Shown here one piece after another: positions 20,103 through 45,281 of a DNA stretch of 46,544 nt (within the stretch, counting starts at the first letter, position 1; each line of letters begins with the position of its first letter). The stretch covers positions 1 through 46,544 of the forward strand of contig CAMWNA010000003.1 of NCBI GenBank assembly GCA_947175515.1, given 5' to 3'. Below the pieces are notes generated by a model, which did not search any database, was not told the origin of the DNA, and saw only the letters and a list, made by a program, of their open reading frames with translations. The position numbers and the translations under genes were made by a program. The stretch is from an uncultured Clostridia bacterium (lineage in GTDB: Bacteria; Bacillota; Clostridia; Christensenellales; Borkfalkiaceae).

Positions 20103-20168
20103 ATTGTCAGTACAAAATGTAATGACAATTTGTAATGACAAATTATAAAAACATATAAGGAGAACGAT

Positions 20169-21197
20169 ATGGCAAACGAAATTGCAAAGCTTAAACCCTT
20201 GCAAGAGCCTGGAGAGGTAATAGAATCCGAAACTGATGCGAAGTACGAAGTATACAAAGCTGACGGCTTATACGAGTATTCTTTGCAGGCGAACGGCAAG
20301 CCAAATAAAGCGCATGCAAGAATAACCTACACACACGGTGATATTTATGACGGCAACCTGAAGCACGGCAAGTATTCTGGGCTTGGCAGTTACCAATGGA
20401 AAGACGGTGGATTTTATGAAGGTAATTTCTCCGGCGGAAAGTTAAACGGCACAGGCAAATATGCAGCACCAAACGGCGACGTCTATGAAGGCAACTTTAA
20501 AAACAATAAGTATAACGGCGAAGGTAAGTACACTTGGGAAGATGGAAGTTCGTTTGAGGGTACCTTTAAAAACGGCCAAATGCAGAGCGGAAGATACATT
20601 GATGCGGACGGTAATGTTTATGATTGTAAGTTTACATACAAGCTCAACGGTGAACGCAAGAACGGCAGCATCAGATTAGTTCGTTTTGCAGAGAAAGAAC
20701 CGCCTAAAAACGAGAACACAGAAAAAAAAGAAACCAAGGAAAAGAAGGAAAATAAGGTCTCAAAGGAAGCCAAGGAAACTTCGAAAGATGCGGATAAAGA
20801 CGCTCCTAAAAATGATAAAGCCGAAACGAAGAAAGCCGCAGTGTCGCGCGTTAATAAAAACGGTTTAACAAGTAAAGATACAAAGCTCATTACCATAATT
20901 CGAAATTCTAAACGCGGCGCTGAATTTAAAAATCTGTATACCGGCGCATCAGGAAAAAGCGAAAGAGCTGAAAAAGATTTAATAGCCATTTTGAATTTTT
21001 TTACTAATTCAGATGCAGCACAGATACAGCGCATATTTAAGTCTTCGAAAATCTACGACGCATCAAAGGGCGACGAACGTCTGACTGATATGGTAACTGG
21101 AATTATAAAGCGCAGCAATGATTTTGTACATAGCACAAAATCAGCCGCAACGGGCCGTCAGAGCTCGGCCAGCGCTGTTAACGGTGCGGCGAGATAA
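20169..21197 (+). CDS. MORN-repeat protein with a C-terminal helical domain shared with the giant primase-like protein
   Basis: 342 aa; repeated YEGNFxxxxxNGxGKYxxxxG; lysine/glutamate-rich linker; C-terminal IIRNSKRGAEFKNLYTG...LNFFTNSDAAQIQRI. Confidence 0.8.
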   Translation: MANEIAKLKPLQEPGEVIESETDAKYEVYKADGLYEYSLQANGKPNKAHARITYTHGDIYDGNLKHGKYSGLGSYQWKDGGFYEGNFSGGKLNGTGKYAAPNGDVYEGNFKNNKYNGEGKYTWEDGSSFEGTFKNGQMQSGRYIDADGNVYDCKFTYKLNGERKNGSIRLVRFAEKEPPKNENTEKKETKEKKENKVSKEAKETSKDADKDAPKNDKAETKKAAVSRVNKNGLTSKDTKLITIIRNSKRGAEFKNLYTGASGKSERAEKDLIAILNFFTNSDAAQIQRIFKSSKIYDASKGDERLTDMVTGIIKRSNDFVHSTKSAATGRQSSASAVNGAAR

Positions 21198-21347
21198 ATG
21201 TCAGTACAAAATCCCCAAAAAGCGTTACAAAGATTTCATCAGAAGATTAACGGAAGAGCCGGAGGAAGAACCATTCAAAGAATTTGCAGAAAATCAAGAT
21301 AAAAATAGTTAAGAAAACACGAAATAAAATTTATTACAAAAAAATGA

Positions 21348-21374
21348 TATGTACTGACAAATTGTCAGTACATA
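21348..21374. repeat. 27-bp perfect palindrome (TGTnnnnACA family site)
   Basis: TATGTACTGACAA-A-TTGTCAGTACATA. Confidence 0.9.
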
Positions 21375-21378
21375 GATA

Positions 21379-21435
21379 TGCCGAGCTGGAAGCTACCTTA
21401 ACAGGGAGAGTGGTTCGATTCCGTTCATCGGCACA
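21379..21435 (+). ncRNA. tRNA-like element (truncated/pseudo-tRNA)
   Basis: TGCCGA(21379-21384) pairs with TCGGCA(21428-21433); T-arm AGTGG-TTCGATT-CCGTT; 57 nt, too short for a canonical tRNA. Confidence 0.45.
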
Positions 21436-21511
21436 TTTTACCTATCGGCTCCATCGCTGCCTAAAAAACGGCGGTGGGGTTGGATAGGTAGCAAAGTAGG
21501 TAGGTAAAATG
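21434..21511 (+). promoter_or_regulatory. Alternative-hairpin leader overlapping a start codon
   Basis: CATTTTACCTA(21434-21444) is complementary to TAGGTAAAATG(21501-21511, contains ATG); overlapping TACCTATC(21439-21446) is complementary to GATAGGTA(21483-21490). Confidence 0.6.
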
Positions 21512-21730
21512 AAAAACTATTATGCAAAACGAAACGGAACCTGTTACGCGTTTCAATCCATGCAACTCCGCAACCTTGCGGTGTATGCAGATGAGTTTGA
21601 ACCGCTGAACCGTGCGGATGCTATGAAACAGTTTGGCTATACTGACAGCTGTTCCATGCGTGTAATAAAGTGCACGTCGATTTCTTCAAAAGAAGATTTA
21701 CTCCGTATTACTTCGGAGGTAAAGAAATGA
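21509..21730 (+). CDS. Small uncharacterised ICE protein
   Basis: 73 aa; MKNYYAKRNGTCYAFQSMQLRNLAVYADEF; overlaps the start region of parA. Confidence 0.65.
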   Translation: MKNYYAKRNGTCYAFQSMQLRNLAVYADEFEPLNRADAMKQFGYTDSCSMRVIKCTSISSKEDLLRITSEVKK

Positions 21731-22503
21731 AAGTCTTATCACTTGTTAATCAGAAGGGCGGCGTAGCCAAGACGACGACGTCAATAGCCCTTGCAGACTA
21801 TTTCGCCCGTCATGGCAAAAAAACACTGCTTATCGATTTTGACCCTCAGGGCAGCTTAACGACCTCATTCGGCCTTGCAGATGACGCGGACAACCCTAAG
21901 GCGCTTAAGTTCCTCGCGCTCGCGCGCGGCGGTTCTGAAGCGATGCCGCATAAGCTCGCAAAAAACTTATACGTCATTACTTCAGATATTGGTCTTGAAA
22001 AAGCTAATGCATCGTTGATAACGAAGATAGGGAAAGAACGTTATCTGCGCCGTGCCGTCGATGAGCTTAACAAAAAAGAAAAGTTCGATTACGTTATCCT
22101 GGATAGCAACCCGTCATTCTCGCAATTGACGATAAACGTGCTTTATGCAAGCGATAAGGTTCTCGTACCGTTCAAGCCGGAGTTTAACTCGTATAAAGGG
22201 ATAATGCAGCTCTTCGAGAACATCGAAGAACTGAAAGCCTTGCAGCCGAATCTTGCCGTACTTGGCTTTGTTGTAACAATGGCGCGACCCGTCAAGTCGG
22301 CAGAACAGGCTATTGCCGAAATTACCGATTTCGCTAAAGACCAGAGCTGTAGGGTATTCACTCCGGCAATTCGTTTAGCGGTTGCCTGCGCGGATGCACC
22401 GTCGCACCAGAAAAGTATATATTCATATGCTCCTGACTCGAGCGTGGCCCATGACTATGAAATGCTTGGCGCGAACGTGCTTGAAGCTTTGGAGGGCATT
22501 TAA
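21727..22503 (+). CDS. parA: ParA/Soj-family ATPase
   Basis: MKVLSLVNQKGGVAKTTTSIALADYF deviant Walker A; start chosen behind GGAGGTAAAGAAATG. Confidence 0.93.
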   Translation: MKVLSLVNQKGGVAKTTTSIALADYFARHGKKTLLIDFDPQGSLTTSFGLADDADNPKALKFLALARGGSEAMPHKLAKNLYVITSDIGLEKANASLITKIGKERYLRRAVDELNKKEKFDYVILDSNPSFSQLTINVLYASDKVLVPFKPEFNSYKGIMQLFENIEELKALQPNLAVLGFVVTMARPVKSAEQAIAEITDFAKDQSCRVFTPAIRLAVACADAPSHQKSIYSYAPDSSVAHDYEMLGANVLEALEGI

Positions 22504-22737
22504 ATGGCACTTGGCAGTTTAGGCCTTTCGGACTTTAAGCCCAAAGCATCGAAGACGGCGGAAAGTCTTCTAACGGTTATTCCAATTCAAGAACACAAGA
22601 AAGATGAGACGATACAACTTCGTGTGGACTACGATGTACACCAAACGTTTAAGGAAATCTGTGATGTGCACGGTAAAAAAATGTCAGTAGTTTTACGAGC
22701 ATACATAGACAGCGTTATATCGGCAGGACGGCTATAA
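22504..22737 (+). CDS. Small ribbon-helix-helix-like partner protein
   Basis: 77 aa; TIQLRVDYDVHQTFKEICDVHGKKMSVVLRAYIDSVI; starts immediately after parA. Confidence 0.65.
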   Translation: MALGSLGLSDFKPKASKTAESLLTVIPIQEHKKDETIQLRVDYDVHQTFKEICDVHGKKMSVVLRAYIDSVISAGRL

Positions 22738-22740
22738 ATA

Positions 22741-23256
22741 ATGAAAAATAAATACTATAAAGGCTTGGTAGATGATGAACCTAAAACATGGGTATATGGC
22801 ACCTTATCATCAAACAACAGCATATTTCAAGCTTATGAGCCTTCAAAGGGAAATTGCGGTATAGGAATTTTTTCGGTTGTCCCTAATTCAATCACAGAGA
22901 TTACCGAGGAGCAGTACGCTGAAGAGTTTGCAAAAGCAAGTAATCAGATTTGCGGAATTGTAAGGTCTGTAACCTCTGATGGACGAATTTGCGTACCGTC
23001 GGAGTTCAGACATAGAGCTGGAATTAAAACTGCAGGGAAAGTGGAGTTGTTTTTGACTTTAATGAAAGAAGTGATCATCTGCACATCAGAAAATAATACC
23101 AGAGACTTTGTCGGTATAGAACGTCCAGTTGCAGAAAACGGGCAAATTTCAATTCCAGTCGAATATCGCAAAGCGATAGGATTAGGTGTAGGCAATAAAG
23201 CTGAAGTTTTTCTAAATGCACAGAACGAAATAATAATCAAAACTTTAAAAACTTAA
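22741..23256 (+). CDS. Protein with tandem AbrB/SpoVT-like domains
   Basis: 171 aa; GRICVPSEFRHRAGIKTAGKVELFLTLMKEVIIC and GQISIPVEYRKAIGLGVGNKAEVFLNAQNEIIIK. Confidence 0.75.
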   Translation: MKNKYYKGLVDDEPKTWVYGTLSSNNSIFQAYEPSKGNCGIGIFSVVPNSITEITEEQYAEEFAKASNQICGIVRSVTSDGRICVPSEFRHRAGIKTAGKVELFLTLMKEVIICTSENNTRDFVGIERPVAENGQISIPVEYRKAIGLGVGNKAEVFLNAQNEIIIKTLKT

Positions 23257-23303
23257 TTGTCATTACAAAACGTAATGACAAAATAAATAAAACGGAGGAA
23301 ACT

Positions 23304-23690
23304 ATGAACAAAGTATTTCTGATAGGAAACTTAACCAAAGATCCCGAATTGACGGAAACGTCTGCCGGTGTTGCATTATGCCGCTTTTCTATAGCGGTGA
23401 ACAGAAGCTACGTCGGCGCTAATAACGAACGTAAGACCGATTTCTTCAACTGTGTTGCCTGGCGCGGCCTTGGCGAGAACATCGCCAAATACACTTCGAA
23501 GGGCGACAAGGTGGCGGTTAACGGCTCGTTCGAGCAGGACAACTACGAAGACGCACAAGGAGTTAAGCGCACTTCATACACACTTGTTGTGCGTGATATA
23601 GAGTTTTTGACATCGCATAATTCACAATCAGACAAGGATGTAGATAAAAAGCTACAACCTGTAACTGAAGATACTGATATTCCTTTCTAA
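23304..23690 (+). CDS. ssb: Single-stranded DNA-binding protein
   Basis: 128 aa; MNKVFLIGNLTKDPELTETSAGVALCRFSIAVNR; acidic tail DTDIPF. Confidence 0.95.
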   Translation: MNKVFLIGNLTKDPELTETSAGVALCRFSIAVNRSYVGANNERKTDFFNCVAWRGLGENIAKYTSKGDKVAVNGSFEQDNYEDAQGVKRTSYTLVVRDIEFLTSHNSQSDKDVDKKLQPVTEDTDIPF

Positions 23691-23773
23691 TCAAACCACA
23701 TAGAAAATGTAATGACAAAATGTCCGTACACCGATGTACTTACATTGATGTACGGACAAACCATGGAGTTATC

Positions 23774-24220
23774 ATGTCAAAAAACGACGGCAAAAGATTT
23801 TATTGGCTTAAATTAACTCAAGACTTTTTTAAACGAAAAGATACAGACGACTCGGACGCAATACAGCTTCTTTTAAGGCAAGCTGACGGAAGCAAGTATG
23901 TTTGTATCTATTTGATGCTATGTCTTGAAAGTATAAATAAAGGTGGACTCCTTTATTATGAGTCAAACGGAATAAAAATTCCGTACACAATTGAAGATAT
24001 AAAAGCTGAGTGCAGATATTATGATCCATCTGAAATTGAATGTGCCGTAAAGCAATTTTTAGCCTTAGGACTTTTAATTACTGTTGAAATCAGTGATGGT
24101 CAACAAGCTTTTGCTTTACCAGAGGTTCCGAAATTAGTTGGGACAGAAACAGGTGCAGCTATTCGCAAAAGACTACAACGGAATAATTTGCCTCTTTTAG
24201 GGGACAATTCGGGGACTTGA
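23774..24220 (+). CDS. Phage replisome organizer N-terminal-like protein
   Basis: Start re-assigned to MSKNDGKRFYWLKLTQDFFKRKD; ends in GGGGACA repeats. Confidence 0.7.
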   Translation: MSKNDGKRFYWLKLTQDFFKRKDTDDSDAIQLLLRQADGSKYVCIYLMLCLESINKGGLLYYESNGIKIPYTIEDIKAECRYYDPSEIECAVKQFLALGLLITVEISDGQQAFALPEVPKLVGTETGAAIRKRLQRNNLPLLGDNSGT

Positions 24221-24503
24221 CGGGGGACAATGTCCCCTTTGTTTTATGGAAAATGTCCCATTAAGGAAGGGGACAAATAAGGGGACTTTGTATCCATAGA
24301 GTATAAGAGATTAAGAGTATTTATTGAAAACACAGGAGAAAAGAGACCAAGTATTTATCGCGCGCGAGAGACGGTGTGAAACATTTTGCAAATTCAGAGC
24401 TTTGCGTTTGCGTGAAACAATGAATAAATATAATGCGCAGTGAATATTCGTGTCGACCACGAATTAGTTTCTTTCTGTGTTTTCACAGGTAACGGAAAGA
24501 GTG

Positions 24504-24541
24504 CGGGAAAACCGAAAGGGCATAGCCCTTGGGTTGTCCCG
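24504..24541. other. Long near-contiguous hairpin (candidate structured RNA)
   Basis: CGGGA-a-AACC-g-AAAGGGC-ata-GCCCTT-g-GGTT-g-TCCCG in the 24220-24580 intergenic region. Confidence 0.55.
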
Positions 24542-24579
24542 TCCCTATTGCAAAATTCAGAATTTAAAAGGAGATCAAA

Positions 24580-24747
24580 ATGAAAACTGCAATGACTGAC
24601 AATTCGAACGAAGTAACGTTAAACGTGCCCACAGGTGAAAGCGCGGAAGGCTATTTCGAAAAATTTTTCGGTTGCGCTCCGACGCCGCACGAGGAAATGC
24701 CTGACGATGCCGACGTGGATGCAACTTACGTCATTAAGCTTAAATAA
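24580..24747 (+). CDS. 55-aa acidic small protein
   Basis: MKTAMTDNSNEVTLNVPTGESAEGYFEKFFGCAPTPHEEMPDDADVDATYVIKLK; AAAAGGAGATCAAAATG; absent from the ORF track because of length. Confidence 0.65.
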   Translation: MKTAMTDNSNEVTLNVPTGESAEGYFEKFFGCAPTPHEEMPDDADVDATYVIKLK

Positions 24748-24761
24748 TCGAGGACGGTTTC

Positions 24762-27700
24762 ATGGAAGATAATAAAGAATTGATAACGAGCCAGTCAGAA
24801 CACGAAAAGACTTCGGAAGAAAAGCCGGCAATAAAAAACTCCGCAACGTTTGCGGAGCAGGTGGATGCCGTTCTGAGCGGCGCGGATATGGAGAGTTCGC
24901 ATTTAGAACTGCTTAAGGTAACGCCTCCGCTTCTTCGAATGGTGGGCGTTCCTAACTTGCCTATCCTAATGACTGCACGCCACGTTAAGACTATAACGCA
25001 GGAAAGCGGAAGCGATTCCGCCAATTATCACGGTTTAGGGACAGAGATTATAAAGAAGCTGCCTGAACTGATATCAGACCCCGTGATGATTATGGATAGT
25101 TTAACACAAAATGACAGTATAGTCATTGTTACGCAAACAGTAGATAAACAATATCGCCCCGTAATCGGAGCTATAAAGCTGGATGGTATAGGTCGCCAAA
25201 AATCCGAAATGATAAGCGCGAATATTTTAACGAGTGCTTATGGACGTAATAATTTCCAGTCGTTCATCGCGCGCAATATTGAGCAAGGGACAGTTCTCTA
25301 TGCGGATAAAGAGAAAAGCCAAGCCTTGTCAGTGAACCCCGGGATACAATTTCCCGACGTTATGGCAAGCCTCAGCTTCAATACTATTATACGCAAAACT
25401 AAGGCTTTTGTCAAGAGCAAGGAAGAAAAAATCAAAGAAAATAAACCCAGTGAGAAAGAAGAGAACACAGAAAAGAAGGAGGAGAAAATGAAATTGTCTG
25501 ACCGCATTAAACGTTTCTTTGGAAGGACGAAGAGCGAGTATAAGGACGTTGCGCCGCAAATTCTTTCGAATGAAGAGTTTGCCGCGCAAAGGGAGCGTAT
25601 AGGTAAAGCCAGAGAAAAAGCTATGCTGATAGCTTCCGAAAGCGGACAACCATATGTAACGATAATGGAAAGCGATTCGGTTAAATTCAAGCCTGGCGAC
25701 GTTCTGTCGTTAGTTGAAGCTGAGAAAAGCTTTACGGAAGAAAACAAAGAGGTTAAAGCTCTTGATGCCGGCGACTATAAAACACTGTTCACAATAGATT
25801 CCGTGTATAAGGGCAAAATGAATAGTGCAGACTGTGTATACCGTATTGGTGCAGAGAACGGCGGAATTGCGGAACAGCTTGCGGAAACGGCAAATTCAAA
25901 TCATGACGTCAATTTGCTCAATTATTCAAAGTACTTGCAAAAGCATCTTGAGCTCGAAGGTATGGTAGATAAAGCCATTGCGGCCAAGCTGCCCTTACAA
26001 AAGCAATACGACGTGCAAGGTTACGCCTTATTCGTAGGCAATGACTTGAACGCATCGCAGAATCCGGAGAGCTTTGAATTTCCGCCGCTTGAAATAGAAC
26101 ACAAAGAAAAAATAATCAATACTGAAAATCTGCCGCACCGTGCGTTTGCCGACGGTCCGATACCGCAGTCGGAGCAAACGTCGAGTAATTCTGCTGAGCG
26201 CCGAGCAACAGATTTTCACGACAAAGTTTTTGGCGTGCGTGAGGAAATGGTAAAAAGCCTTATCAGATACATAGAACAAAGCCCTAAGCAATGGGAAGCT
26301 GGTTGGAATAATATTGCCGGCACGGCGCCTGAAAACGGTAAAACAGGTACACCGTATCGCGGTTTAAACTTGCTTTACTTAACGTTTACGGCGATGCAAA
26401 AAGGGTATACCGACCCTCGCTGGGTAACGTTTAATCAGGCCAAAGAACTCGGAGCGAGTGTAAAGAAGGGTGAGAAGTCTTCGCCCATTATATTCTACGA
26501 ATTATACGACCGAAACACGAAAAAGTCTTACGACAGCAATACGACTAAAAATATGACCGACGAACAGAAGGATGCGTATATGAAGGAGAATGTTTACGCT
26601 GTCCTTAAATATTCGAACGTCTTTAATGCTTCACAATGTCATAACTTCCCAGAGCGTGACACCGCGTCGATGCAGATGAAGGAAGAAGAACGTGCAAAGC
26701 AGAACGCATTAATCGAATCTATTATTTCGAATAGTGCAGCGCCCGTTCTCCATGATGGGGGCAACGAAGCTTTCTATTCGCCCATGCAGGATAAAATACA
26801 TTTGCCGCCGCTCGAAGCTTTCAATACGATGCAGGATTATTATGCAACCGCGTTGCATGAAATTGCTCACTCCACGGGCCATGAAAGCCGCTTAAACCGT
26901 GATTTAAGCGGTAGCAGGCATTCGTCGGCATACGCAAAGGAAGAACTCCGCGCTGAGCTTGCTTGTGTATTTATGCAGGTGGAGCAGGGTTTAAAGCTTG
27001 ACGGTAAACACTTCTCAAACCATGCAGCATATCTGAACAGTTGGCTTAACCAAGTTAAGGATGACCCCCAGATATTTTATGCGGCCGCGCGAGATGCGGA
27101 GAAAATCTCGGACTACGTTGCCGAGAACTATCTGCATGCAGCGCAGACTGCTGAGCTCGAAGGCGAAGCAGTTCACTCGAATACAGCCGCAGTAGTTCAG
27201 GGAAACACAGAAAAAAAAGAAGCTTTAAATGCGTCAAAAATCAATTTAACTGAAAAGCGTTTGAAAGACTATGCAGATATATTGCGTAGGAACGATTTAG
27301 AGGTCGGTAATACCGCTCAGTCGGACGAATATTACATAAACCAAGCCCGAGAACAAATAAAAGCTTATGAGCAGACAGACGAATATAGAGGAGCAGTGAG
27401 AGCAGATTATCCGCGCGACTTCGAAGACGAGCTCACCGAAACGTTGCTTGACGAGGCTGAGGCTCACGTCGGGACCTTGAATGGAGAACACAAAGAAGAA
27501 AAAAGCTTTGAGGATACAGTGCAAGAGCTTGCAACATCGGAGGGATATAGCTTTACCGAAAATGCGGAACTTGTGCATCAGTATTCAAAGAATATTTTTG
27601 AAACTGAGCTCAAAGCGCGCGATGTTTTCTCTGACAATAATATGCAAAAACAGCCAGCGTTTTCGAAATTTTCAACTGCACAAATAGAACACATTGCTAA

Positions 27701-30578
27701 AAATTATATGTATTACAACAACACCTATGCTTTCAACTTGGCAAAAATAATGAAAGCAGAGCGTGAAAAATATGAATATCAGGCTTTAAAAGCCATTTTG
27801 CAACAAGGTAATGACGCGCCCGAGTATATCCGAATTGATGGGTATAATTATTTGTTCAGAACAGAAGATTTGACCCAGAAATACGGCGGAAAAATTGAGA
27901 ACGGGCAAATAGTTGTTACACCTGAGCTTGAAAATTCATTTTTTAAACTTAATGAAAAATACAACGAACAGCAAGGAGAACACAAAGAAAAAATGAATTC
28001 AGTGCCTCATTATACAATTGATTTCAAATTAAATTGTTCAAATGAAATGCTTTTAAGCAATGAATTAAAGCAATTAGGCTTTAAAGTTGATAGAGATGCT
28101 TATAATCGAAACGAGCAAAGAGATGGTACAGCACTCGAAAATCGAATAGACCGTTGGGTGGACGAAATTAATTATGTGGGAGCCGAGGGCAAGTCAATTG
28201 AAGGTTGGTATGGAAAAACTTTTAACGGAATTATGTTAGAGTCAACCGATATTACAGGCTTTACGACGTCTGGCTTAAGTCTTAAAGAAGTGCAAGCCGT
28301 AGCCGATGCGGTGCAGAGCTTTGGCGTTAACGTTACAGTAAAAGAGATTCCGTCGCAGCATCGTATTGTTCCAGAACAGAAGCAAGAGACTTCGAACAAC
28401 GGCGCCGCGGCGAAAGCTCCACTGGTTGTCAATTTGTTTGCAGGACCGGGCGCAGGAAAAACCACGGCCGCACTGGAGCTTACGGCAGCGCTGAAGAAAG
28501 AGGGGTACAACGTAGAGTATGTTTCCGAGTTCGCCAAGGAGCTCGTGCTCGAGGGCAGAACTGAAGAGCTGAAGGACCAGGAGTTTGTAACGAACGAGCA
28601 GTACCATAGAATAGACCGTTTACGTAACTCAGGGGTTGAGATTATCGTAACGGATTCCCCAGTACTCCTCGGCAAAGTATACGGCGAAGGGAAGAACAGC
28701 GCGGAGTACGATAAGCAAATACTCGATTATCACAACAGCTTCGAGAACTTTAACCTTATGGTTAAGCGCGGCGAAACTTTCCAAGCAGAAGGGCGAGTGC
28801 ATAATCTTGAGCAATCAAAAGAGCTCGATACAAAGATAACGTCTATGTTACGCAGTAACCAAATATTTTACGGTAACTATCACCACGGTGATATAGACAA
28901 AACTATCGACCGTATAAATGCAACGTACGCTCGCTTGTACGGAGAAAAGCAAGCGGATAATAAAAATGTATCCGTAAATACGTTCTGCACTGATTTTGGC
29001 GGTGAATATCTGTATTTCCGTGTCAATGATGGACTATCGATTGAGGATGTTTGTAAAGGTTACGCCGAGGACCCTGAAGATGGCTTTGGTTATAACTTTG
29101 GGCAAGAGATATCAGAAAGCCAGTACAATGAAATCAGAAATACAAGCAAAGGCTTTAATATCGATTTTCTTGACGATATAAATGCTTTTACGATAACTCA
29201 GGATGGAAATGTTTTAGAGAGCGGCTATTTGTACGAGGATTTAGTTTTGAAGTATCAAGAACCTGAAGCGCAAGAAGAATCAGCCGAAAAGACCGTTGGA
29301 GAGGAGCTAACGAATAAAACCACGTGGAGCAAGATAAATCTTCCAGACGGCGCTGTCGGAAACGAGTACGGCAAAACCACTCTTGTTAAAATGCCGCAGA
29401 GTGGCGAATATGCTCATTTTGGTGTTTTCGTTTCTACACAATATCTCAGGCAGAATTCAAAGACAGGCAAGTGGCAGCTTAACGTCGGCGATAAATTCAC
29501 GTACCGCTTAACAAACGACGGGCGGCAGGTCGAACTGACGGGCCAAGAACTCAAGGATAGCTTTGCCGGGGTGCTTATCGGAAAAACTCCCGAGCGTGTG
29601 GCGCCGAGCCGTAAAAATCTGAGAGTGCTCGACAATCTTGAAAAGAACGTTCCAAAAGAACTTCGTGTGCATGCCAATTGGTGTGTTTACCGCACCTATA
29701 AGGAAACGGATAAGGAAAAGAAGGGTAAAGTCATCAAGTCGGCAGTAACGGGAGAGGGGGCAAGCCCTAAGAACTCGGCAGACTGGACCGACTTCGATAC
29801 AGCGATGAAATATGCACGTGAAAACAACTTCGAAGGCCTTGCGTTCGTGTTGGAACAAAATAGCGGCATAACGTGCATCGATTTGGATAAGTGCATCAAG
29901 AACGCGGAGACGGGGGAAATGAAGGAACGCGCGACCAAGCTAATTGAAGAGCTGAAAGGCACGTACATGGAGCGCAGCACGTCTGGGAACGGCGTACATA
30001 TTTTCATTAAGGACGACATCCTTAAAGGCGGCAAGTATAAAGACTCCTCGGTAAGTGAGGAGAAGGGCGACCTCGAAGTCTTCGATAATCAGCGCATTAT
30101 ATCGATGACCGGTGATATGTTTTCTGAAACGAACACCTTGACGAGAGCCGGCAGCAGTGCAACCGTTTATCTTCGTCAGGAGCTCGGCGAAAAACAGCAG
30201 ACTCACCGTTCACCATCTTCCAACGTAAGGACCGGCTATAAAGCCGGCAGCGACCGAGAGGTAGTAGAGCGCATCCGCCGTAGCAAGCGCGCAGGCGACT
30301 TCGAGGATCTTTATACCGGTCACGGTATTACTGGGAACGCGTCGATTGATGACATGAAGCTTGCTAATATTCTCGCTTTCTTCACTAACGGTGATGCCGC
30401 TCAGTGCATGAGAATTATGCGTGAGGCGTCAACGTACCGTTCTGACAAACCCGAATCTTATTATAATCACACCATATCCAAGGCAATCGACACATTAACT
30501 ATCCGCCCATCGTACGGCGCCGCGCAGGGCGCTTCAGCAAGCAATAAGCGGACAGCAGGAAACGGTGCAGCGCAGTAA
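24762..30578 (+). CDS. Giant multidomain ICE protein: ArdC-like antirestriction/zincin + P-loop NTPase + PrimPol-like domain + C-terminal helical domain
   Basis: 1938 aa; TGTPYRGLNLLYL and HEIAHSTGHESRL (ArdC/zincin); NLFAGPGAGKTTAALEL; HANWCVYR...ITCIDLDKC...YMERSTSGNGVHIF (PrimPol-like); C-terminal RSKRAGDFEDLYTG...LAFFTNGDAAQ. Confidence 0.82.
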   Translation: MEDNKELITSQSEHEKTSEEKPAIKNSATFAEQVDAVLSGADMESSHLELLKVTPPLLRMVGVPNLPILMTARHVKTITQESGSDSANYHGLGTEIIKKLPELISDPVMIMDSLTQNDSIVIVTQTVDKQYRPVIGAIKLDGIGRQKSEMISANILTSAYGRNNFQSFIARNIEQGTVLYADKEKSQALSVNPGIQFPDVMASLSFNTIIRKTKAFVKSKEEKIKENKPSEKEENTEKKEEKMKLSDRIKRFFGRTKSEYKDVAPQILSNEEFAAQRERIGKAREKAMLIASESGQPYVTIMESDSVKFKPGDVLSLVEAEKSFTEENKEVKALDAGDYKTLFTIDSVYKGKMNSADCVYRIGAENGGIAEQLAETANSNHDVNLLNYSKYLQKHLELEGMVDKAIAAKLPLQKQYDVQGYALFVGNDLNASQNPESFEFPPLEIEHKEKIINTENLPHRAFADGPIPQSEQTSSNSAERRATDFHDKVFGVREEMVKSLIRYIEQSPKQWEAGWNNIAGTAPENGKTGTPYRGLNLLYLTFTAMQKGYTDPRWVTFNQAKELGASVKKGEKSSPIIFYELYDRNTKKSYDSNTTKNMTDEQKDAYMKENVYAVLKYSNVFNASQCHNFPERDTASMQMKEEERAKQNALIESIISNSAAPVLHDGGNEAFYSPMQDKIHLPPLEAFNTMQDYYATALHEIAHSTGHESRLNRDLSGSRHSSAYAKEELRAELACVFMQVEQGLKLDGKHFSNHAAYLNSWLNQVKDDPQIFYAAARDAEKISDYVAENYLHAAQTAELEGEAVHSNTAAVVQGNTEKKEALNASKINLTEKRLKDYADILRRNDLEVGNTAQSDEYYINQAREQIKAYEQTDEYRGAVRADYPRDFEDELTETLLDEAEAHVGTLNGEHKEEKSFEDTVQELATSEGYSFTENAELVHQYSKNIFETELKARDVFSDNNMQKQPAFSKFSTAQIEHIAKNYMYYNNTYAFNLAKIMKAEREKYEYQALKAILQQGNDAPEYIRIDGYNYLFRTEDLTQKYGGKIENGQIVVTPELENSFFKLNEKYNEQQGEHKEKMNSVPHYTIDFKLNCSNEMLLSNELKQLGFKVDRDAYNRNEQRDGTALENRIDRWVDEINYVGAEGKSIEGWYGKTFNGIMLESTDITGFTTSGLSLKEVQAVADAVQSFGVNVTVKEIPSQHRIVPEQKQETSNNGAAAKAPLVVNLFAGPGAGKTTAALELTAALKKEGYNVEYVSEFAKELVLEGRTEELKDQEFVTNEQYHRIDRLRNSGVEIIVTDSPVLLGKVYGEGKNSAEYDKQILDYHNSFENFNLMVKRGETFQAEGRVHNLEQSKELDTKITSMLRSNQIFYGNYHHGDIDKTIDRINATYARLYGEKQADNKNVSVNTFCTDFGGEYLYFRVNDGLSIEDVCKGYAEDPEDGFGYNFGQEISESQYNEIRNTSKGFNIDFLDDINAFTITQDGNVLESGYLYEDLVLKYQEPEAQEESAEKTVGEELTNKTTWSKINLPDGAVGNEYGKTTLVKMPQSGEYAHFGVFVSTQYLRQNSKTGKWQLNVGDKFTYRLTNDGRQVELTGQELKDSFAGVLIGKTPERVAPSRKNLRVLDNLEKNVPKELRVHANWCVYRTYKETDKEKKGKVIKSAVTGEGASPKNSADWTDFDTAMKYARENNFEGLAFVLEQNSGITCIDLDKCIKNAETGEMKERATKLIEELKGTYMERSTSGNGVHIFIKDDILKGGKYKDSSVSEEKGDLEVFDNQRIISMTGDMFSETNTLTRAGSSATVYLRQELGEKQQTHRSPSSNVRTGYKAGSDREVVERIRRSKRAGDFEDLYTGHGITGNASIDDMKLANILAFFTNGDAAQCMRIMREASTYRSDKPESYYNHTISKAIDTLTIRPSYGAAQGASASNKRTAGNGAAQ

Positions 30579-30955: not shown

Positions 30956-30971
30956 TTAAGGAGAAAACACA

Positions 30972-31460: not shown

Positions 31461-32787
31461 GGTAGTATTTAACGTCAGTTACACGAACGCGCAGCCGCCG
31501 GTGAACTTTACGGGCAAAGCACGTGCGGATTACATTGCGCAACGCAAGTTCTATAATTTGACGGCGGATTACAATTACTTTGAGTATTCACTTAACGGCC
31601 AAAAAGTCGTTAAGAACGCTAATGCGGAGCATTATTTTACCCGTGAAGGCACGAACACCGGGCTTTTTAACATGGACGGCGTTATATCCGAAGAGAAAAA
31701 GGCCGAGTTAAAAAGTCTGTTAAAAGATACGCAAAGCCCTATCTGGCACGGTTTCATCAGCTTCGATGAGGAAACCAGCCTCGGCTTCCAGACGCAGGAG
31801 AACTGCATAAAGTTTCTGCGCCAGACTTTCGGCGAGTTTTTAAGGCGCGGCGGTTTCAGAAAAAATAACGTAGAGCTTTACTGTTCGTTGCATGACGATA
31901 CCGATAATCGCCATATTCATTTCGCTTTCTTTGAAAGAGAGCCTCTGCACTGTAATAAAAACGGTGTGGCCGGGCAGTTTAGGCAAGGTTTTATTCAGAA
32001 CAAGATAATTGATAATTATCTCGTATCAGCGAATATGCACCTTTCTGAACACGGCGCCGAATATTACACCGCACGTGACGAGGCAGTAAGCGAGCTTAAC
32101 AAAATCCGCGAAAATCATGCAGTTGGCGGCACGTTCTTCACCACCGACCGCGGCCGTAATCTCGAGCTTAACCTTGCCTTTGACAAGCTTATTGCAAAAT
32201 TGCCTAAGACGGGCCGTTTACAGTACAACGCAAAAGAGATGGCAGAGCTTCGGACTGAAATCGACAAGCTTGCGGCGCTGCTCATAAAGTCGGATAAGCG
32301 TGCGGAAGCTGCGCATCTCAAGATGCTTAAACAGTTTGCGCGTGTAGAAAACGAGGTCCGCGAGCTGGCCTTGGATAACAAGCTCGCCTATATGAACGAC
32401 CGCCGAATGACGAAGGAAGAGCTGCAAACCGTAATGAACGAAGATACACGCAATCAGAAGATGCCCGTTAAATATCTTGACATGCAGAACGTTGACTATT
32501 TCGAACGGCTGAAAGCGGATTATGCGGCAAGGCTCGGAAATATCGTTCTTGGTATTTGTAAGGACATAAAACGTACTGACAAAATGTCCGTACACCGTAA
32601 GGCTTACGTGAACGATATTCGCAGAAAAGTCGAGGCCAAGCATAAACGCATAAAGCGCGGCGACTTTTTCCGAACGGCGAGGGAAGTTCTTGCGGCCGTT
32701 TGCTCAACCGATAGCGCGAACTTCCTCAAATCGTTCAAGCAAATCGAAGCCGAAATTGCTTTCGAGCAAGTTGATGGCAGAATCTGA
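31453..32787 (+). CDS. MobP-like relaxase
   Basis: Start re-assigned to MSKVVFNVSYTNAQPP; IWHGFISFDEE and DDTDNRHIHFAFFE metal-binding motif. Confidence 0.8.
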   Translation: MSKVVFNVSYTNAQPPVNFTGKARADYIAQRKFYNLTADYNYFEYSLNGQKVVKNANAEHYFTREGTNTGLFNMDGVISEEKKAELKSLLKDTQSPIWHGFISFDEETSLGFQTQENCIKFLRQTFGEFLRRGGFRKNNVELYCSLHDDTDNRHIHFAFFEREPLHCNKNGVAGQFRQGFIQNKIIDNYLVSANMHLSEHGAEYYTARDEAVSELNKIRENHAVGGTFFTTDRGRNLELNLAFDKLIAKLPKTGRLQYNAKEMAELRTEIDKLAALLIKSDKRAEAAHLKMLKQFARVENEVRELALDNKLAYMNDRRMTKEELQTVMNEDTRNQKMPVKYLDMQNVDYFERLKADYAARLGNIVLGICKDIKRTDKMSVHRKAYVNDIRRKVEAKHKRIKRGDFFRTAREVLAAVCSTDSANFLKSFKQIEAEIAFEQVDGRI

Positions 32788-32801
32788 CAAATGAGGTAAA
32801 G

Positions 32802-35075: not shown

Positions 35076-38000
35076 GAACACAGAAAAGAAAAAATTATAT
35101 TTTACTAGAGGTTATATTTTGTCTTTTGCTTATTATGTCGCTTGGCTTTGCTCTTAACATAGACAAGCCTATGACAGCCTCGGCGGCTACGGAGCAGACG
35201 CTTTATTCGGGAACTACAGAAACATATTATTCAAGTGCAGCAAAATACTGGCAAACCGTAAGTATAACCGCACCTAACGGTCATTTGAGTATGGAAGGAA
35301 TTTTAAATTTTAAAAGATATATCAATGGTGAGAACATCGAGATAAAAGTTGGTAGAGGTGATGGAAATATAAGCGATAATCACCGCGTATGGACGCTTAC
35401 TTATTTGAGACTACTAAAAGAAGTCGATTCGCAATGGGTGCAAGTTGGCTCGGACGAGCGTATCGCTGCAGTTTGTGCGCACCACGGCGGTGGGTATAAC
35501 GAAGTAGGTGAAGGTCTCAGATATCCTGGTAACTCCAATCTATACACTAACGGGCGCAGTAAAACGATATCGGAATATTGCAGTAATGCGGTATCCGATG
35601 ACACGTACGTAACCGATATCACGGCAACAAAGGGTGGAAACCTATATCCAATTAAATACTTCGATATTAACCAAGAAGGATATTACAAAATTGAAATAAT
35701 ATTCGTTGCCTTTCAGAACGGGTATGCTACTACTTCGACTGGCGCTACTACTCATAGCGTTAACGCGACGTTTTACGTGGACCGTACTGGTCCGGACTTA
35801 ACGCTTACAGGAGCAAATGACGGCTTTTCCAACAGTTCAGTCAAAGCTGATTTCAGCGATGTGTGCGGTGCAACCGCTAGTTATGCTCGAAATACAGATA
35901 TGTACTTCTCGGCAACTCCTAGTATTTCAATGTCAAGCGGAGCAAGTTTTTCAGATGAGGGGAATTATGCAATAGTTGCAACCGACAATGTGGGAAACGT
36001 ACGTCGTAAGGAATTTACGATTGACCGCACTGCACCTGTTCTTTCGCTCAACGGTGTTGGGAACGGCGGAGCAACAAACGGGAACGTTAAAGTTTCTTGG
36101 GATACGACTGTCGGCGGAATCGGAGCGCAGCGCGTAAACAGTAACGATGCGCTCACGGTCAAGTATAGTTATTCCAAAAGCTATACTCCGCCGAATGACG
36201 CGACGACAGAGATAACGTCGGCGAGCAATAGTAAAACGTTCACGGATAACGGAAGTTACCGCGTAACCATATGGGACCGTGCCGGGAATAATTCATCGTA
36301 TACTTTCATAATCGATACGGTTGCGCCGACGGTGACGATGTTACCGGATTCTTATATTAATCACTCTTTCGTGTTCTCTGCAACAGATAGCTACAGCCTT
36401 AAAGGAATTGAGTACAAAAAGGACGGCGGTACTTCTACTAAGCTTGAGAAAGACAAATTGTCGGTAAGCCTAAACCGGGACAATTACGGAGCATGGCAAT
36501 TCCGTGCTTATGACAGTTGCGGAAATTATACTGAGTGGTATTCAACCAATATGTATTATCGCACGGAGTTCGGTAACAGCAACAGAATATACAACGGGTA
36601 TTTTTTACCTGCTTATTTCATAGTTACATTGCCAAGCAAAACATTCACTGATATATCCGGCAAATACACGTTCGCCGAATATTCCGCGGCGTTTGACTGG
36701 GCGTATAAAAGGGAATGGGAATACCGCGTAATAGAGCTTGGCAACAATAAATGGTCATATGTGAATATAGCGAACGAAAGCATACATCAGGTTTACACGG
36801 ATCGTGCGGAACTGAACAACGCAGTCAGCAAATACGCTTCGAGCTATGTTTCCGATAGACGGGTAATAAGCGCTTTTGGCGGAACGATAAGTAATCCCAC
36901 GGATACAAGTGGGACCACGCGCGATGATGCACTCACAGTACAGCTTTCTGAGTTGCCTGCACATCTATCAGAATATTCAGGGCTGACTTATATGCTAGCC
37001 GAACATTCCTATGAATTTAAACGGCCGGAAAACGGTGTTGCAGACAATACGTCGACAGCGAGCATTAAATTCATATCCGATGGAATATCTAAGCAAAACG
37101 GGCCTGAAATTCGAATTGGTTACGGCGATACTTTGAAAGCTACGTTGAACGCAGCTTCTGCATGGCGCCAAGGTTACTATCTGGTTACCGAAACCGACCG
37201 TTGCGGAAACATCGAAAAGTACGTGCTTTGCATTGATACAGGTGAGCCTACGATAGAGGCGGATATTAAGCTCGGAAACGGAGATTACGGCGAACTTGAG
37301 TTCACCAAAGCATATGTTGAACAGCATTATGGTACAATGCGTTATCTATCGCTTAGCTTTACGGCTATGCAAGATTCTGTTGACGGTTTCGTTATGCTTA
37401 ACATCAACGGACGGGGACTGGATAACGTGAAATACGTATCCGGTGATGAATTACCGGTTCTGAATTATGAAAACGGTTATTACGGTGATTACAGCATTAC
37501 GGTTTACGACCGGTCTCTGAATGCATTGCAATTCAACGTAAGAATTGCCGGCATTGCCCCGACGGTATCGTACACTTCACTCACCAACGAAACCAAGTGC
37601 ACGTTGACGATATCATTGAACGACGCCGATAACGCTCTTGCGTCGCTAAAGCTTTACAAAATAGCTTATGACGGCGAGTACACAGCAAAAAGCTTTGACG
37701 ACGACGGAACGAGCATAAACGTGCAGTCGCTTGTATACGTCTTACGTACAGGTGGTAAATACGTTCTCGAATTTACGGACATGTACGGAAGAGAAGTAGT
37801 GACAGAGCCAATATTTTATATGAAAGGACTGCCTGTTGGTACCCTGTCCGGTGTTAAAGCCGGAGGCTTGACGAATAAAGACGTCAGTTTTACCTACGAC
37901 GCATCGTGTTCAGTAAATCTCTATGCATGGCAAAGCGGCGTATGGGTAATGGTAAACGAGCTTATGCAGACAACCGACGGTGAAAGCTCTTGTAAAGCCG

Positions 38001-40462: not shown

Positions 40463-40517
40463 ATGAAACGACAGCTTAAGCTGATTATATATAATTTTAA
40501 TTTAAAGGAGAAATTTT

Positions 40518-40832
40518 ATGAAAACTTTTGCAAACATGGCGCTTTTAGCGTCAAGCGAATTCAATTCCGTGGGGCAATTACTTGCGGACTTTTTGAATAG
40601 TTGGTGGGGACCGTTGCTCATCGTTATCGGCGCATGCGGCGGCATACTCGGGGTTATTGCCGGGTTTAAGTGGTGGTTTGCTCACGCTTCAGGCGATGAA
40701 AATAAAGTTAAAAGCGCAAAGCAGTTTGCTATCGGCGTAATAATAGGCTTTGTAATTATCTTCGTTTTAGCGGCATTAATTCCCGTTCTTGTGGCAGCGT
40801 TCTCAAGTTGGTTCGATTCGCAAGGAGTATAA
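40518..40832 (+). CDS. Small two-TM conjugation protein (VirB2/Maff2-like)
   Basis: 104 aa; signal/TM organisation typical of this position before VirB6. Confidence 0.6.
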   Translation: MKTFANMALLASSEFNSVGQLLADFLNSWWGPLLIVIGACGGILGVIAGFKWWFAHASGDENKVKSAKQFAIGVIIGFVIIFVLAALIPVLVAAFSSWFDSQGV

Positions 40833-40836
40833 AACG

Positions 40837-42585
40837 ATGTGGATTACGATTAAGAAACTGCTTGCGCAGCTTCTATTCTGGCTCTATGATTTTTTGGATC
40901 TTATTGGAGATGTTTTTCGCTTGTTGGTTGGTCTTGATAAAGTAGGCTATACCTCTGACGGCGTCGAAACTGAAATGACGCTCTTGGATGCGTTTATGCA
41001 ACATACCGTTGCATCGAAGATATTATTTGGTCTGATACTTATAGGTGTAATTATCGCTTGCGTTTGCGGCATCGTTAAGGTAGGCAAAAATATCTTTAAG
41101 GTCAAAGTGGAAGGTGAACGTGCATCACACACCATTGCGGTGGGACAAACGTTTATGGCGATACTAAGCTCGGTAGCGTGTATATTTTTCGTATTGCTTT
41201 TCATAGCCTTTGCAAATATGCTGTTACAGCAAGTGAACGCTGTAACAGCGCCTGCAAACGGTGATACGCAATTCTCGCATTATCTTTTCGATTTATCCGT
41301 GGAATCGAAGTATCAGCTTGATTATGACCATCCGCTTACGCGTGAAGTGCCTAGAGTTGATGAAAACGGTAATTACATACAGGCCAAAGACGGAAACGGC
41401 GACCCACTATATCTGATGGACGAGTTTGGAAATTTTGTTAACGAGAAGGGTGAAATTGTCGACCCCGCATACAAAGTACCTAAATATGAAATGGATATAG
41501 AGGTCTATTATGAAAACGCAATTTTACGCGATTCAAACGGAGATCCAATTCTTGATTTAAACGGAAATACACAGCTTGTAGCTAAGTCAGGATATGCCGA
41601 CGGTGTAACTGCCAGTGACCTTGATTTCAAGACAATGAGCGTGAATACGATTTTCGGAAGACACCATAAAATTATGGGTTGGGAAATCGAGTCGATGGGA
41701 TATAGCGTAAAGCCAATGGTTGAACTGGAATCGTTCAATCTGTTTACCGCATATTTGGTCGCCATCGTAATGCTGATATCATTAATAGTTATATGTCTGG
41801 GAATGGTCAAACGGCTTTACGACGTCATCGTTTTGATATTTATGATGCCGCTTGTGTGCGGAACCATCCCGTTGGACGACGGAGCGCGTTTTAAAGCTTG
41901 GAGAGAAATTTTTATGTCAAAAATATTCCTCGTTTTCGGTGCCGTACTTGCAATTAATGTATTTTTTCAAATTGCACCAATAATCGAGCTTATAAATCTT
42001 TCAGCTTTCAGTTCGTCGAAGTTTGTTCAGAGTATAGTTAAAATGTTTCTTTATATGGGCGGCGCGCTTTGCATCAATGCAAGTCAGGTACTTATTGCGC
42101 GTGTTCTAGGCACGTCTGCAGATGAAAGCCGTGAGCTCGCACAGTCTGCACGTACTATCATTGGTGGAGTAACACTTGGCGTCGGTGGAATGGTCGGTGC
42201 GAAAAATATGATATTCGGCGGTTATAACAAGTACGGCAGATACCGCAGGGGACTTCGAGGACTGTTTAGCGGTCGTAACAATGGTGATAGCTCTGGGACT
42301 GCCGGCGGCGGTCCCGGCATTGGCTCTCCAACGTCGCTGTCGAAACCTGGTGCATTAGGTGGAGGTTTCGGAACGGCGGGCGGCGGAACATCAGCGCCCT
42401 TTACTCCAAGCGGCAGAACGAGCGGAGGCCTACCGAGCTTGCAAACAGTAAATAAAATTATGGGCTCGTCAATGGCGCATGTGAGGAAACCGGAAGAAGG
42501 TAGAGCAAACAGTCTGTTAACGAAAGGCACGGTCCCTGGCATCAGCAAGCCTGGCGCGTTTAAAAATAATACAAAGAAAAAGTGA
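40837..42585 (+). CDS. VirB6/TrbL-like polytopic T4SS protein
   Basis: Start re-assigned to MWITIKKLLAQLLFWLYDF behind AAGGAG; multiple TMs; Gly/Pro/Ser-rich tail. Confidence 0.75.
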   Translation: MWITIKKLLAQLLFWLYDFLDLIGDVFRLLVGLDKVGYTSDGVETEMTLLDAFMQHTVASKILFGLILIGVIIACVCGIVKVGKNIFKVKVEGERASHTIAVGQTFMAILSSVACIFFVLLFIAFANMLLQQVNAVTAPANGDTQFSHYLFDLSVESKYQLDYDHPLTREVPRVDENGNYIQAKDGNGDPLYLMDEFGNFVNEKGEIVDPAYKVPKYEMDIEVYYENAILRDSNGDPILDLNGNTQLVAKSGYADGVTASDLDFKTMSVNTIFGRHHKIMGWEIESMGYSVKPMVELESFNLFTAYLVAIVMLISLIVICLGMVKRLYDVIVLIFMMPLVCGTIPLDDGARFKAWREIFMSKIFLVFGAVLAINVFFQIAPIIELINLSAFSSSKFVQSIVKMFLYMGGALCINASQVLIARVLGTSADESRELAQSARTIIGGVTLGVGGMVGAKNMIFGGYNKYGRYRRGLRGLFSGRNNGDSSGTAGGGPGIGSPTSLSKPGALGGGFGTAGGGTSAPFTPSGRTSGGLPSLQTVNKIMGSSMAHVRKPEEGRANSLLTKGTVPGISKPGAFKNNTKKK

Positions 42586-42594
42586 GGGTGAACG

Positions 42595-45237
42595 ATGCAG
42601 AGAATTATACCTAAAAACAGCAAAGTTAAAATGGCGTTATTCAAAGGTCTTTCGCTTTCGGATATGATTTTAATTTGCGTTGCTATGATATTTGCGATTC
42701 TTATCCTTATGTCGAACTTTGCTTCGAAGATAATTCTGCTTGTGGTTTTTGTAGTATTTGTGGCAGGACTTTTAATCGGCTCTGATGAAGATAAGATGTA
42801 CAAACAGTTATATTATTTTTGCCATTACGCAGTATCTCGCAAGCACTATGAGAAAGGCGCTAAGCACGGCAATGCCTCGGACCTTATACCATTTAAAGAA
42901 ATCCGCGCAGATGGAGTAATCGTTTATGACGGTTATTTCGGCGCGGTGGTGGAAGTTGGAAGCGTATCTTTCGGACTTTTGGACGAGCAGGAGCAGGACC
43001 GGCGCATTTCGGAGTTTGCATTGGTCTTAAATAGCCTCAGCCAGTCCTCAGTTATACAATTAGTCAAAATTGATAGGCCTATAAATTATGACGACGTTGC
43101 TAGACGACTTTTTGAAAAGCTCGAGCGCGTGCTGGAAGGCAACCGTGATCCTGTTCAGGAGGCTGTACTCCGAGCGCGGCTCGAGCAGGTCGACAAAATG
43201 AACAACATTTTGCCGCAGTATCGCCCGTATTATTACATAGTTATATATGATGAAACCGAAACGGCGCTTTTAAATCAAGTCGACGTGTGTCGCAACGGTT
43301 TGGATAATGCCGGACTTGATTCCGAAATGCTTGAAGGCGAAGACGTTGCGGTATTTTTCAAATACTGCTATACGCGAAATTTTGACGAACGCAAAGTAGA
43401 CGAAGCGGAAGATTACGCGGATTACGTCAAGCCGGAAAAAGTAAAGTTTTCTTTGGGTTCTTATACGTGTGACAACGTCTATGCGTTCACTCTGGCGGTG
43501 CGTGATTATCCGCTATATGTAAGTAATTCCTGGGGAGCGGAATTATTCAATATTGATAACACGAAAGTTGTTTTAACTATAAAGCCTGTAGACAAGCATA
43601 AAGCTATTAAGCGCATTGACGGCGCGGTGGTGGAAGTAAGCGCTCAGCGCAGGGTAAAGCTTTCTGAGGCTCAGGCGCAAGAAACGCACGTGCAAACTAT
43701 GGCGCTTTTACAGCAGTCCATCCAGAACGAGAACGAAATGCTATTCGATTGTACGTTAACCGTAACGGCGTTCAACAATACCGAAAAGCCAGACGCAACG
43801 TTTCGAAAGGATATCCGCAGAAAACTAATGACGAGTGGTTTCCGCATCAGTTATATGATAGGCCGACAGTTTGACGGGTTTGCCGCGGCCACGGTAGCGC
43901 GGCGGAAACGTCTTCGAGCTTACGAGCGCGGTATTAATTCGGAATCCTTGGCGGCAGTGTTTCCTTTCGTGTTCTCGTCTGTAATTGAGCCTGACGGGTT
44001 CACGCTTGGGTTTGAATACTATCCGGTTATTCTTGATATCTGGAAACGTAGCGCAGATTACATTAATAGTAATCTCGTCATTTTCGGAAAATCCGGCTCC
44101 GGTAAATCATTTTTTACTAAGCTTCTTTTACTTAACGTCTATTCCGAAAATTCACGAATATTTATTCTGGACCCTGAAGATGAGTATAAGACTCTCGCTC
44201 AGAACGTTAAAGGCGCGTTCATCGACGTCGGCAGCGCTACGCAGGGAAGGCTTAACCCGTTGCATATATATCCCGTGCTTACCGACGAAGGCGAAATTGC
44301 GGCACCTGACATTACGTTCTCCGCACATCTGCAATTCTTGGATTCATTCTTCCGGATAACGCTTACCGGAATTACTGCCGACTCGTTGGAAGAGCTGAAC
44401 AACCAGGTAATTGCGATGTATGAGAATTTCGGGATAACACGGGAAACAGATTGCTCGGAATATACACCTGATAAATTTCCAACTTTCGATAATTTGCTTG
44501 CAACGGTTGAAAAAGCTTTAAACGACGGCGAGGAAATGACTATGCAACGCAGGCAGAACTTGGAGCGCATAAAAACGTACATAATGAAATTTGCGACAGG
44601 CGGTATGTTTTCTACGCTGTGGTGCGGACCGTCTACGCTCGAGACAAGTGAAAAGCTAACGGTGTTCAATTTTCAGTCATTATTTGGTACAAGTAACAAG
44701 GTCGTGGCGAACGCGCAGATACTCGTTGTTATGCGCTATCTGGATCAGCAGATAATTAATATCCGCGAACACAATCGGTCTACAGGAGATATAATTCATC
44801 CGTTTATTGTTGTGGACGAAGGTTACAATTTTATCGACCCTAAATACCCGATAGCGTTGGACTTCATTTACCTTTGGTTTAAGCGCATAAGAAAATATGA
44901 AGGCAGTATCGCGTTTATTACGCAAAATTTAATAGACGTGCTCGGCAACCAGGAAGTTGTGGCCAAAACTACGGCTATTATAAACAATTCACAGTATTCG
45001 TTTATATTCTCGCTTGCGGCAAAAGATATAGAGATTCTTACGGACCTCTATAAGAACGCCGGCGGGATTAATGATACCGAGCGCATGCAGATTGCGAATG
45101 CCGGGAACGGCGACTGCTTCGCAATTTGTTCCAGTCGGCAGCGTACTGCATTTCATGTCTTTGCGCACGATACCGTTCGTGCATTGTTTGATAATCCGGA
45201 TGCGCTCGAAGAGCTCGGGCCTGCGATTTCCGTCTGA
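42595..45237 (+). CDS. virB4: PrgI-like N-terminus fused to VirB4-type ATPase
   Basis: 880 aa; N-terminal MQRIIPKNSKVKMALFKGLSLSDM with two TMs; VIFGKSGSGKSFFTKLLLL; PFIVVDEGYNFID. Confidence 0.88.
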   Translation: MQRIIPKNSKVKMALFKGLSLSDMILICVAMIFAILILMSNFASKIILLVVFVVFVAGLLIGSDEDKMYKQLYYFCHYAVSRKHYEKGAKHGNASDLIPFKEIRADGVIVYDGYFGAVVEVGSVSFGLLDEQEQDRRISEFALVLNSLSQSSVIQLVKIDRPINYDDVARRLFEKLERVLEGNRDPVQEAVLRARLEQVDKMNNILPQYRPYYYIVIYDETETALLNQVDVCRNGLDNAGLDSEMLEGEDVAVFFKYCYTRNFDERKVDEAEDYADYVKPEKVKFSLGSYTCDNVYAFTLAVRDYPLYVSNSWGAELFNIDNTKVVLTIKPVDKHKAIKRIDGAVVEVSAQRRVKLSEAQAQETHVQTMALLQQSIQNENEMLFDCTLTVTAFNNTEKPDATFRKDIRRKLMTSGFRISYMIGRQFDGFAAATVARRKRLRAYERGINSESLAAVFPFVFSSVIEPDGFTLGFEYYPVILDIWKRSADYINSNLVIFGKSGSGKSFFTKLLLLNVYSENSRIFILDPEDEYKTLAQNVKGAFIDVGSATQGRLNPLHIYPVLTDEGEIAAPDITFSAHLQFLDSFFRITLTGITADSLEELNNQVIAMYENFGITRETDCSEYTPDKFPTFDNLLATVEKALNDGEEMTMQRRQNLERIKTYIMKFATGGMFSTLWCGPSTLETSEKLTVFNFQSLFGTSNKVVANAQILVVMRYLDQQIINIREHNRSTGDIIHPFIVVDEGYNFIDPKYPIALDFIYLWFKRIRKYEGSIAFITQNLIDVLGNQEVVAKTTAIINNSQYSFIFSLAAKDIEILTDLYKNAGGINDTERMQIANAGNGDCFAICSSRQRTAFHVFAHDTVRALFDNPDALEELGPAISV

Positions 45238-45281
45238 TAATATGTACTGACATTTTGTCATCACATTTTGTACTGACAAAA

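Follow-up and report, generated by a model that had tools for sequence, protein, structure and literature searches.

Known RHH partition proteins come from a handful of plasmids, with a single box spacing in each case, and we know of little work on the segregation of ICEs. In pSM19035, the parS arrays overlap with promoters, and activation of the ParA protein requires at least four contiguous boxes arranged as gapless heptads (PMC9499535). In ParG, it is the N-terminal tail that activates ParA (PMC7308502), and SGI1 offers an example of an integrated element that bears sites resembling the parS of an element residing in the same cell (PMC10954446).

The locus investigated in this study is part of a window of 46,544 nucleotides, the whole stretch of DNA that was analysed, from an uncultured Clostridia bacterium. 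It comprises an ICE with a family of short boxes, in total about 18 units in seven clusters that are spread over 25 kb. This observation is real, and an ICE-borne ParA-RHH system largely explains it, with boxes that are dispersed and that differ in core and step from one relative to the next. The boxes would probably be sites of the ICE's own RHH protein, a ParB-type partner of ParA, and thus function as dispersed centromere and operator. In our best reading of the sequence, the system would serve for type Ib ParA-RHH segregation on an ICE, with a step that varies among related elements.

Gene content of the element and distribution of its boxes

Positions 18001-45340 of the window were analysed as the ICE part, and the element is identified as an ICE by the joint presence of an integrase, a relaxase, a coupling protein and VirB4. 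The window spans its contig completely, which places the right end of the ICE outside of our view. The integrase is adjoined by a tRNA 3' end look-alike at about 17846-17879, and the contig stops before any second copy. The gene set contains, besides the integrase, two divergent XRE regulators, a MORN-repeat protein, ParA, a 77-aa RHH protein, a tandem AbrB/MazE-like protein, an SSB, a phage replisome-organiser-like protein (Phage_rep_org_N), a 1938-aa ArdC-containing polyvalent protein, a MobL relaxase, the coupling protein, a pilin-like protein and VirB4. ParA is small, without an N-terminal HTH, and it matches AAA_31 from its first residues, as expected of type Ib. In the divergent promoter region of the XRE genes (19760-19919), a promoter with a 12/12 match to the sigma-70 consensus (19857-19885) is located amid 29-nt repeats. 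The MORN protein (20169-21197) and the polyvalent protein (24762-30578) have a C-terminal domain in common that resembles the helix bundle of NrS-1 polymerase (PF22763), and it is at this domain that sequences of related elements match both proteins. Left of the ICE (10966-17426) are defence-like genes, which encode an HD-CE/HATPase protein, a transposase fragment and an nSTAND3-Mrr protein. The features of the ICE that are relevant for the following are:

19391 to 19750, minus strand: XRE regulator, a candidate rival binder
19818 to 19919, no strand assigned: 29-nt repeat in three copies, a family separate from the boxes and likely the XRE operator
19920 to 20102, plus strand: second, divergent XRE regulator of 60 aa, a candidate rival binder
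21727 to 22503, plus strand: ParA ATPase of about 258 aa with the deviant Walker A motif KGGVAKTT
22504 to 22737, plus strand: 77-aa RHH protein, the proposed binder, with an N-terminal tail, the strand region ETIQLRV and helices at 43-56 and 60-74
22741 to 23256, plus strand: tandem AbrB/MazE-like protein with two domains, a candidate rival binder without match in relatives
45282 to 45318, plus strand: intrinsic terminator of 17 pairs, directly 3' of the last box cluster

The clusters of boxes, to which no strand is assigned, are distributed as follows:

20104 to 20141: three units at a 13-bp step, TTGTCAGTACA-AAA-TGTAATGACAA-TT-TGTAATGACAA, 2 bp 3' of the stop of the 60-aa XRE gene and ahead of the MORN gene
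21199 to 21208: a lone unit, TGTCAGTACA, 2 bp past the MORN stop
21348 to 21374: two inverted units at a 13-bp step, forming a perfect 27-bp palindrome (13-1-13), upstream of a structured leader and parA
23257 to 23281: two inverted units, the second being CGTAATGACA, right after the final stop of parA-rhh-abrB and 22 bp ahead of ssb
23708 to 23758: four units at steps of 13/14/14 bp, with TGTACTTACA at 23735, 18 bp past the ssb stop and preceding the replisome-organiser-like gene
32557 to 32594: three units at steps of 15/13 bp, the middle one being CGTACTGACA, within the MobL relaxase gene
45243 to 45278: three units at exactly 13 bp, the middle one at 45256 being TGTCATCACA, 6 bp past the VirB4 stop and directly before the terminator

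All seven clusters claimed in the initial annotation were thus recovered at their positions, including the three units with exact 13-bp spacing in front of the terminator. Its description of every unit as TGT-N4-ACA applies to 16 of about 18, with two units (in the clusters at 23257 and 32557) starting with CGT. The stricter form TGTANKGACA, from which some units depart, has 14 matches in the window compared to 0.37 expected, a count that is reached in 0 of 100 shuffles. The proposed phasing of about 13-14 bp holds for most of the arrays, where the step is mostly 13 bp, and it is violated by the wider first step inside the relaxase gene. A location at operon boundaries describes the clusters in part: five of them start 2-18 bp past stop codons and one about 150 bp past a stop, but one is contained within the relaxase gene, and the last is placed between a stop codon and a terminator and not at a promoter.

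The boxes are confined to the ICE. In the ICE part, TGT-N4-ACA occurs 20 times compared to 5.2 expected, with 16 of the 20 sites residing within clusters, and pairs at 13/14 bp occur 8 times compared to 0.001 expected from 1000 dinucleotide shuffles. The left flank (1-18000) carries three single TGT-N4-ACA sites, compared to 2.8 expected, and no pair, in agreement with the initially noted absence of phased boxes from the flanking chromosome. A genome-wide scan for equal density outside of the ICE (104 contigs, 1.69 Mb) detected TGTN4ACA-N3-TGTN4ACA solely in this ICE, in four clusters, and no instance of the reversed control, and the 11 scattered single copies of TGTANKGACA outside of the window are at about chance level for a genome of this size. 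We also considered an RNA-hairpin reading of the inverted repeats at 23257 and 21348, which was dropped because the units are found in direct as well as in inverted order.

A strongly structured leader is located between the array and parA, both in the window (21375-21512, z -4.8) and in L052 (18478-18620, z -2.1). By eye, it is partly tRNA-like and it ends in a stem; in the window, the start of a small ORF (MKNYYAKRNGTCYAFQS; in the relative MKNYSSKHKGKCFAFQD) lies within this stem. The leader could serve as oriT, as single-strand origin or as regulatory leader. A search of Rfam gave no match.

Boxes in related ICEs and in phage-like elements

Six related elements, all with homologues of VirB4 and ParA, carry GT-N4-AC octamers whose core and step are specific for the respective element. 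In G419, another Clostridia genome, ParA is 72% identical to its counterpart in the window and the core is altered to TGTRTACACA. The other five elements were obtained by searching 397 genomes of the order with ParA. The stretches of the relatives are partial, with the relaxase and the coupling protein found in three of them and the polyvalent protein in four. Their boxes are:

G419: box GTRTACAC, step 13 bp
G241: box GTAATGAC, step 14 bp
G327: box GTAAAGAC, step 13 bp
G029: box GTATAGAC, step 9 bp
G026: box GTAAAGAC, step 9 bp, at least nine units in a row
G262: box GTMAGTAC, step 8 bp

A loss of the sites in close relatives of the ICE was looked for, and the relatives were found to retain such sites. 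In G419, three-unit arrays at exactly 13 bp are located ahead of the MORN gene and ahead of parA, and at the right end (L050 9703-9738), an array directly precedes a terminator, as does the last cluster of the window. In an assumption-free search for 10-mers, the box or its array ranks first in the window, G241, G029 and G026, and a variant of the box is the top hit in G262. Under the tree of VirB4 (seven rows, two of them partial), the step must have switched at least twice between the 13/14 and the 8/9 class, and it therefore seems evolutionarily labile among relatives. A class-wide search with a ParA profile revealed no ICEs of this type beyond G026, searches of viral contigs with ParA and the relaxase found nothing, and in plasmids the RHH protein found nothing and ParA found generic homologues only, below 40%. 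The triple-array pattern in viral contigs was rejected, with hits that were mainly 13-bp minisatellite-like repeats. A UPF0236-like gene is present in or beside three of the ICEs (L050 7467-8852, L095 7579-8943, L101 5519-6862); its start is overlapped by an array in G419, and an array sits inside the gene in G327.

RHH genes also adjoin such arrays in three unrelated phage-like elements, namely the pair of related phages L033 and L034, L051 and L135. Among these, L051 (1-5400, contig 199 of G419) is a filamentous-phage-like prophage, whose ATPase matches Acholeplasma phage MV-L51 (E 2e-4). Its own RHH gene, at 4192-4401, is directly preceded by a 13-bp TGTATACACA array, which is also found in the ICE of the same genome. 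The occurrence of TGTRTACACA at 13 bp in both elements of G419 would be expected if the boxes were read by a host-encoded regulator and constituted an operator common to several mobile elements per cell. We consider such a regulator very improbable in light of the genome of the window, where phased boxes are absent outside of the element, of the absence of triple arrays from 396 other genomes of the order and from 391 of the class, and of the RHH gene that the prophage itself encodes directly after its array. More speculatively, and in our view doubtful, the ICEs could form a family with a dispersed centromere, in which core and step (8, 9, 13, 14 bp) would shift together with the RHH protein to create compatibility groups, and where the ICE box in the prophage of G419 would either ride on or interfere with ICE segregation. 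Pairs of TGTATAGACA at 13 bp are contained in 10 phage contigs (L137-L146) with no RHH gene recognised nearby, and the box alone is thus not diagnostic of an RHH protein. We presume that these pairs might be operators of the GntR/HutC type.

Candidate binders and the role of the boxes

In all six elements where the respective stretch is assembled (the window, G241, G327, G029, G026 and G262), parA is directly followed by a small RHH-like gene; in G419, the closest relative, the RHH gene is absent from the assembled contigs. An array is found within a few bp of the RHH stop in G241, G327, G029 and G262, and if the parA-rhh-abrB stop of the window is included, arrays adjoin the stop of either the RHH gene or the par operon in five of the six elements. 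Among the DNA-binding proteins, that encoded by the RHH gene is the only one seen to be common to the elements. The initial annotation attributed the boxes to a single DNA-binding protein and named the RHH partner of ParA as a possibility. This attribution thus gains support, and the relatives favour this protein over the XRE and AbrB-like candidates. These are likewise encoded by the ICE beside clusters and belong to DNA-binding families, but the AbrB-like protein (22741-23256) has no tblastn match in the six relatives that retain boxes, and XRE matches in relatives are few, generic and distant from the arrays, the 60-aa regulator matching weakly and in G327 only; moreover, the XRE pair has a separate repeat at its own promoter. 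It is therefore highly unlikely that either of them would be the binder. Since the RHH gene, and not those of its competitors, is kept after parA and adjoins arrays in relatives and in phage-like elements, its product is, by co-occurrence, the likeliest protein to bind the boxes. We infer that the RHH protein binds the boxes, that ParA makes use of them and that their function is split between partition and regulation.

The assignment of the window protein to the RHH family rests on an alignment and on its relatives, as searched alone it gave no significant match in Pfam or the PDB. In an alignment of nine RHH proteins, the best match among solved structures is ParG (1p94, E 0.0017), and the protein of G327 scores above the Pfam RHH_1 cut-off. 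The monomer model of the window protein is of modest confidence (pLDDT 70.6), and its top matches in Foldseek are RHH proteins, but not significant. The N-terminal tail is common to the ParA-linked RHH proteins and absent in those of phages, and its position is that of the ParA-activating tail of ParG. A code relating one beta-strand residue to the core (Q with TGAC, N with AGAC, H with ACAC) fits eight elements and was rejected, as it is broken by L135, where the RHH protein contains a proline at the position of the histidine of L051, yet has the same box. A prospective test of such a code, which scanned for pairs of TGTATACACA and TGTAWAGACA, was equally unsuccessful: an array-adjacent RHH gene was found in one of 14 contigs, its residue being at odds with the code, and two of the hits are repeats within coding sequence. 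A home-made RHH profile is too weak to provide a fair control because it missed the RHH protein of L135.

With respect to the role of the boxes, a combination of partition and operator function is most likely and a function as iterons least. If they constituted a purely transcriptional regulon, the RHH protein would act as global repressor of conjugation and maintenance operons, and the sites would have no part in segregation. Such a mechanism has a precedent in the RHH protein ArtA, which has six sites on a conjugative plasmid and represses tra and segregation genes (PMC6540685), and it would be in line with the intergenic location of the sites at several operon junctions and with the 9/12 promoter match in the 23257 cluster. 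It is nevertheless rather unlikely in view of the RHH gene, which directly follows parA wherever this stretch is assembled, and of most arrays of the window, which have no recognisable overlapping promoter. Additionally, the relaxase gene contains one array, and in two elements, the window and G419, the last array is followed by a terminator; both locations are better accommodated by a centromere-like function than by sites that act purely at promoters. Replication iterons bound by the replisome-organiser-like protein would account for the arrays that flank ssb and the Phage_rep_org_N gene and for the long run of consecutive 9-bp units in G026. However, the replisome-organiser-like protein of the window finds no match in the relatives, where boxes persist, and the distribution of arrays over 25 kb, including the interior of the relaxase gene and the region after VirB4, leaves a replication function with little probability.

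In the preferred reading of segregation by ParA and its RHH partner, an RHH dimer would use its beta ribbon to contact each unit, a pseudo-palindromic GT-N4-AC octamer. The dimers would pack side by side at a fixed step, which is 13-14 bp in the window, and, by analogy with omega and ParG, they would bind to the octamers cooperatively. Their N-terminal tails would recruit and stimulate ParA, and the bound arrays would be the complexes that are moved by ParA over the nucleoid while the element is excised and replicating. Where arrays overlap with promoters, transcription would be tuned or repressed.

Comparison with known systems

The described elements combine one gene pair with differing cores and with steps of 8, 9, 13 and 14 bp, and they provide a natural series for the packing of RHH dimers on DNA, which also bears on the number of units needed by ParA and on the change of specificity without loss of function. 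The combination of boxes and a ParA-RHH pair offers a sequence signature for locating such elements in uncultured Clostridia.

The ICE shares with the delta/omega system of pSM19035 a small ParA, a small RHH partner and iterated boxes, which are found in both orientations and at several positions of a single element (PMC9499535). However, the omega boxes are contiguous 7-bp WATCACW sequences in runs of 7-10 over promoters, whereas the box of the window and its step of 13/14 bp do not conform to such heptads. Instead, we find GT-N4-AC octamers with a step of 13/14, 9 or 8 bp. They mostly form arrays of 1-4 units and are located in an integrative element, partly off promoters. Arrays of the window contain four units at most, and their maximum thus equals the minimum in pSM19035. 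A ParA with a small partner is also found in PrgP/PrgO, and there are weak matches to both NCBIfam models, although with 14.3 of 100 bits for PrgO and 55 of 400 bits for PrgP, these are far under the family cut-offs. The ArtA protein of pSK41 is likewise an RHH protein whose sites, six in number, are dispersed over a conjugative element, but it is a repressor encoded beside tra operons and not a partner of ParA. The parS mimics of SGI1 are reminiscent of the prophage of G419 that bears the box of the ICE; yet SGI1 exploits the ParAB proteins of its helper plasmid, whereas the prophage encodes an RHH protein of its own, and a hijacking of the ICE system is conjecture. Finally, the ParF/ParG/parH system of TP228 similarly combines ParA with an adjacent RHH protein that contains a mobile N-terminal tail and that acts at both centromere and operator.
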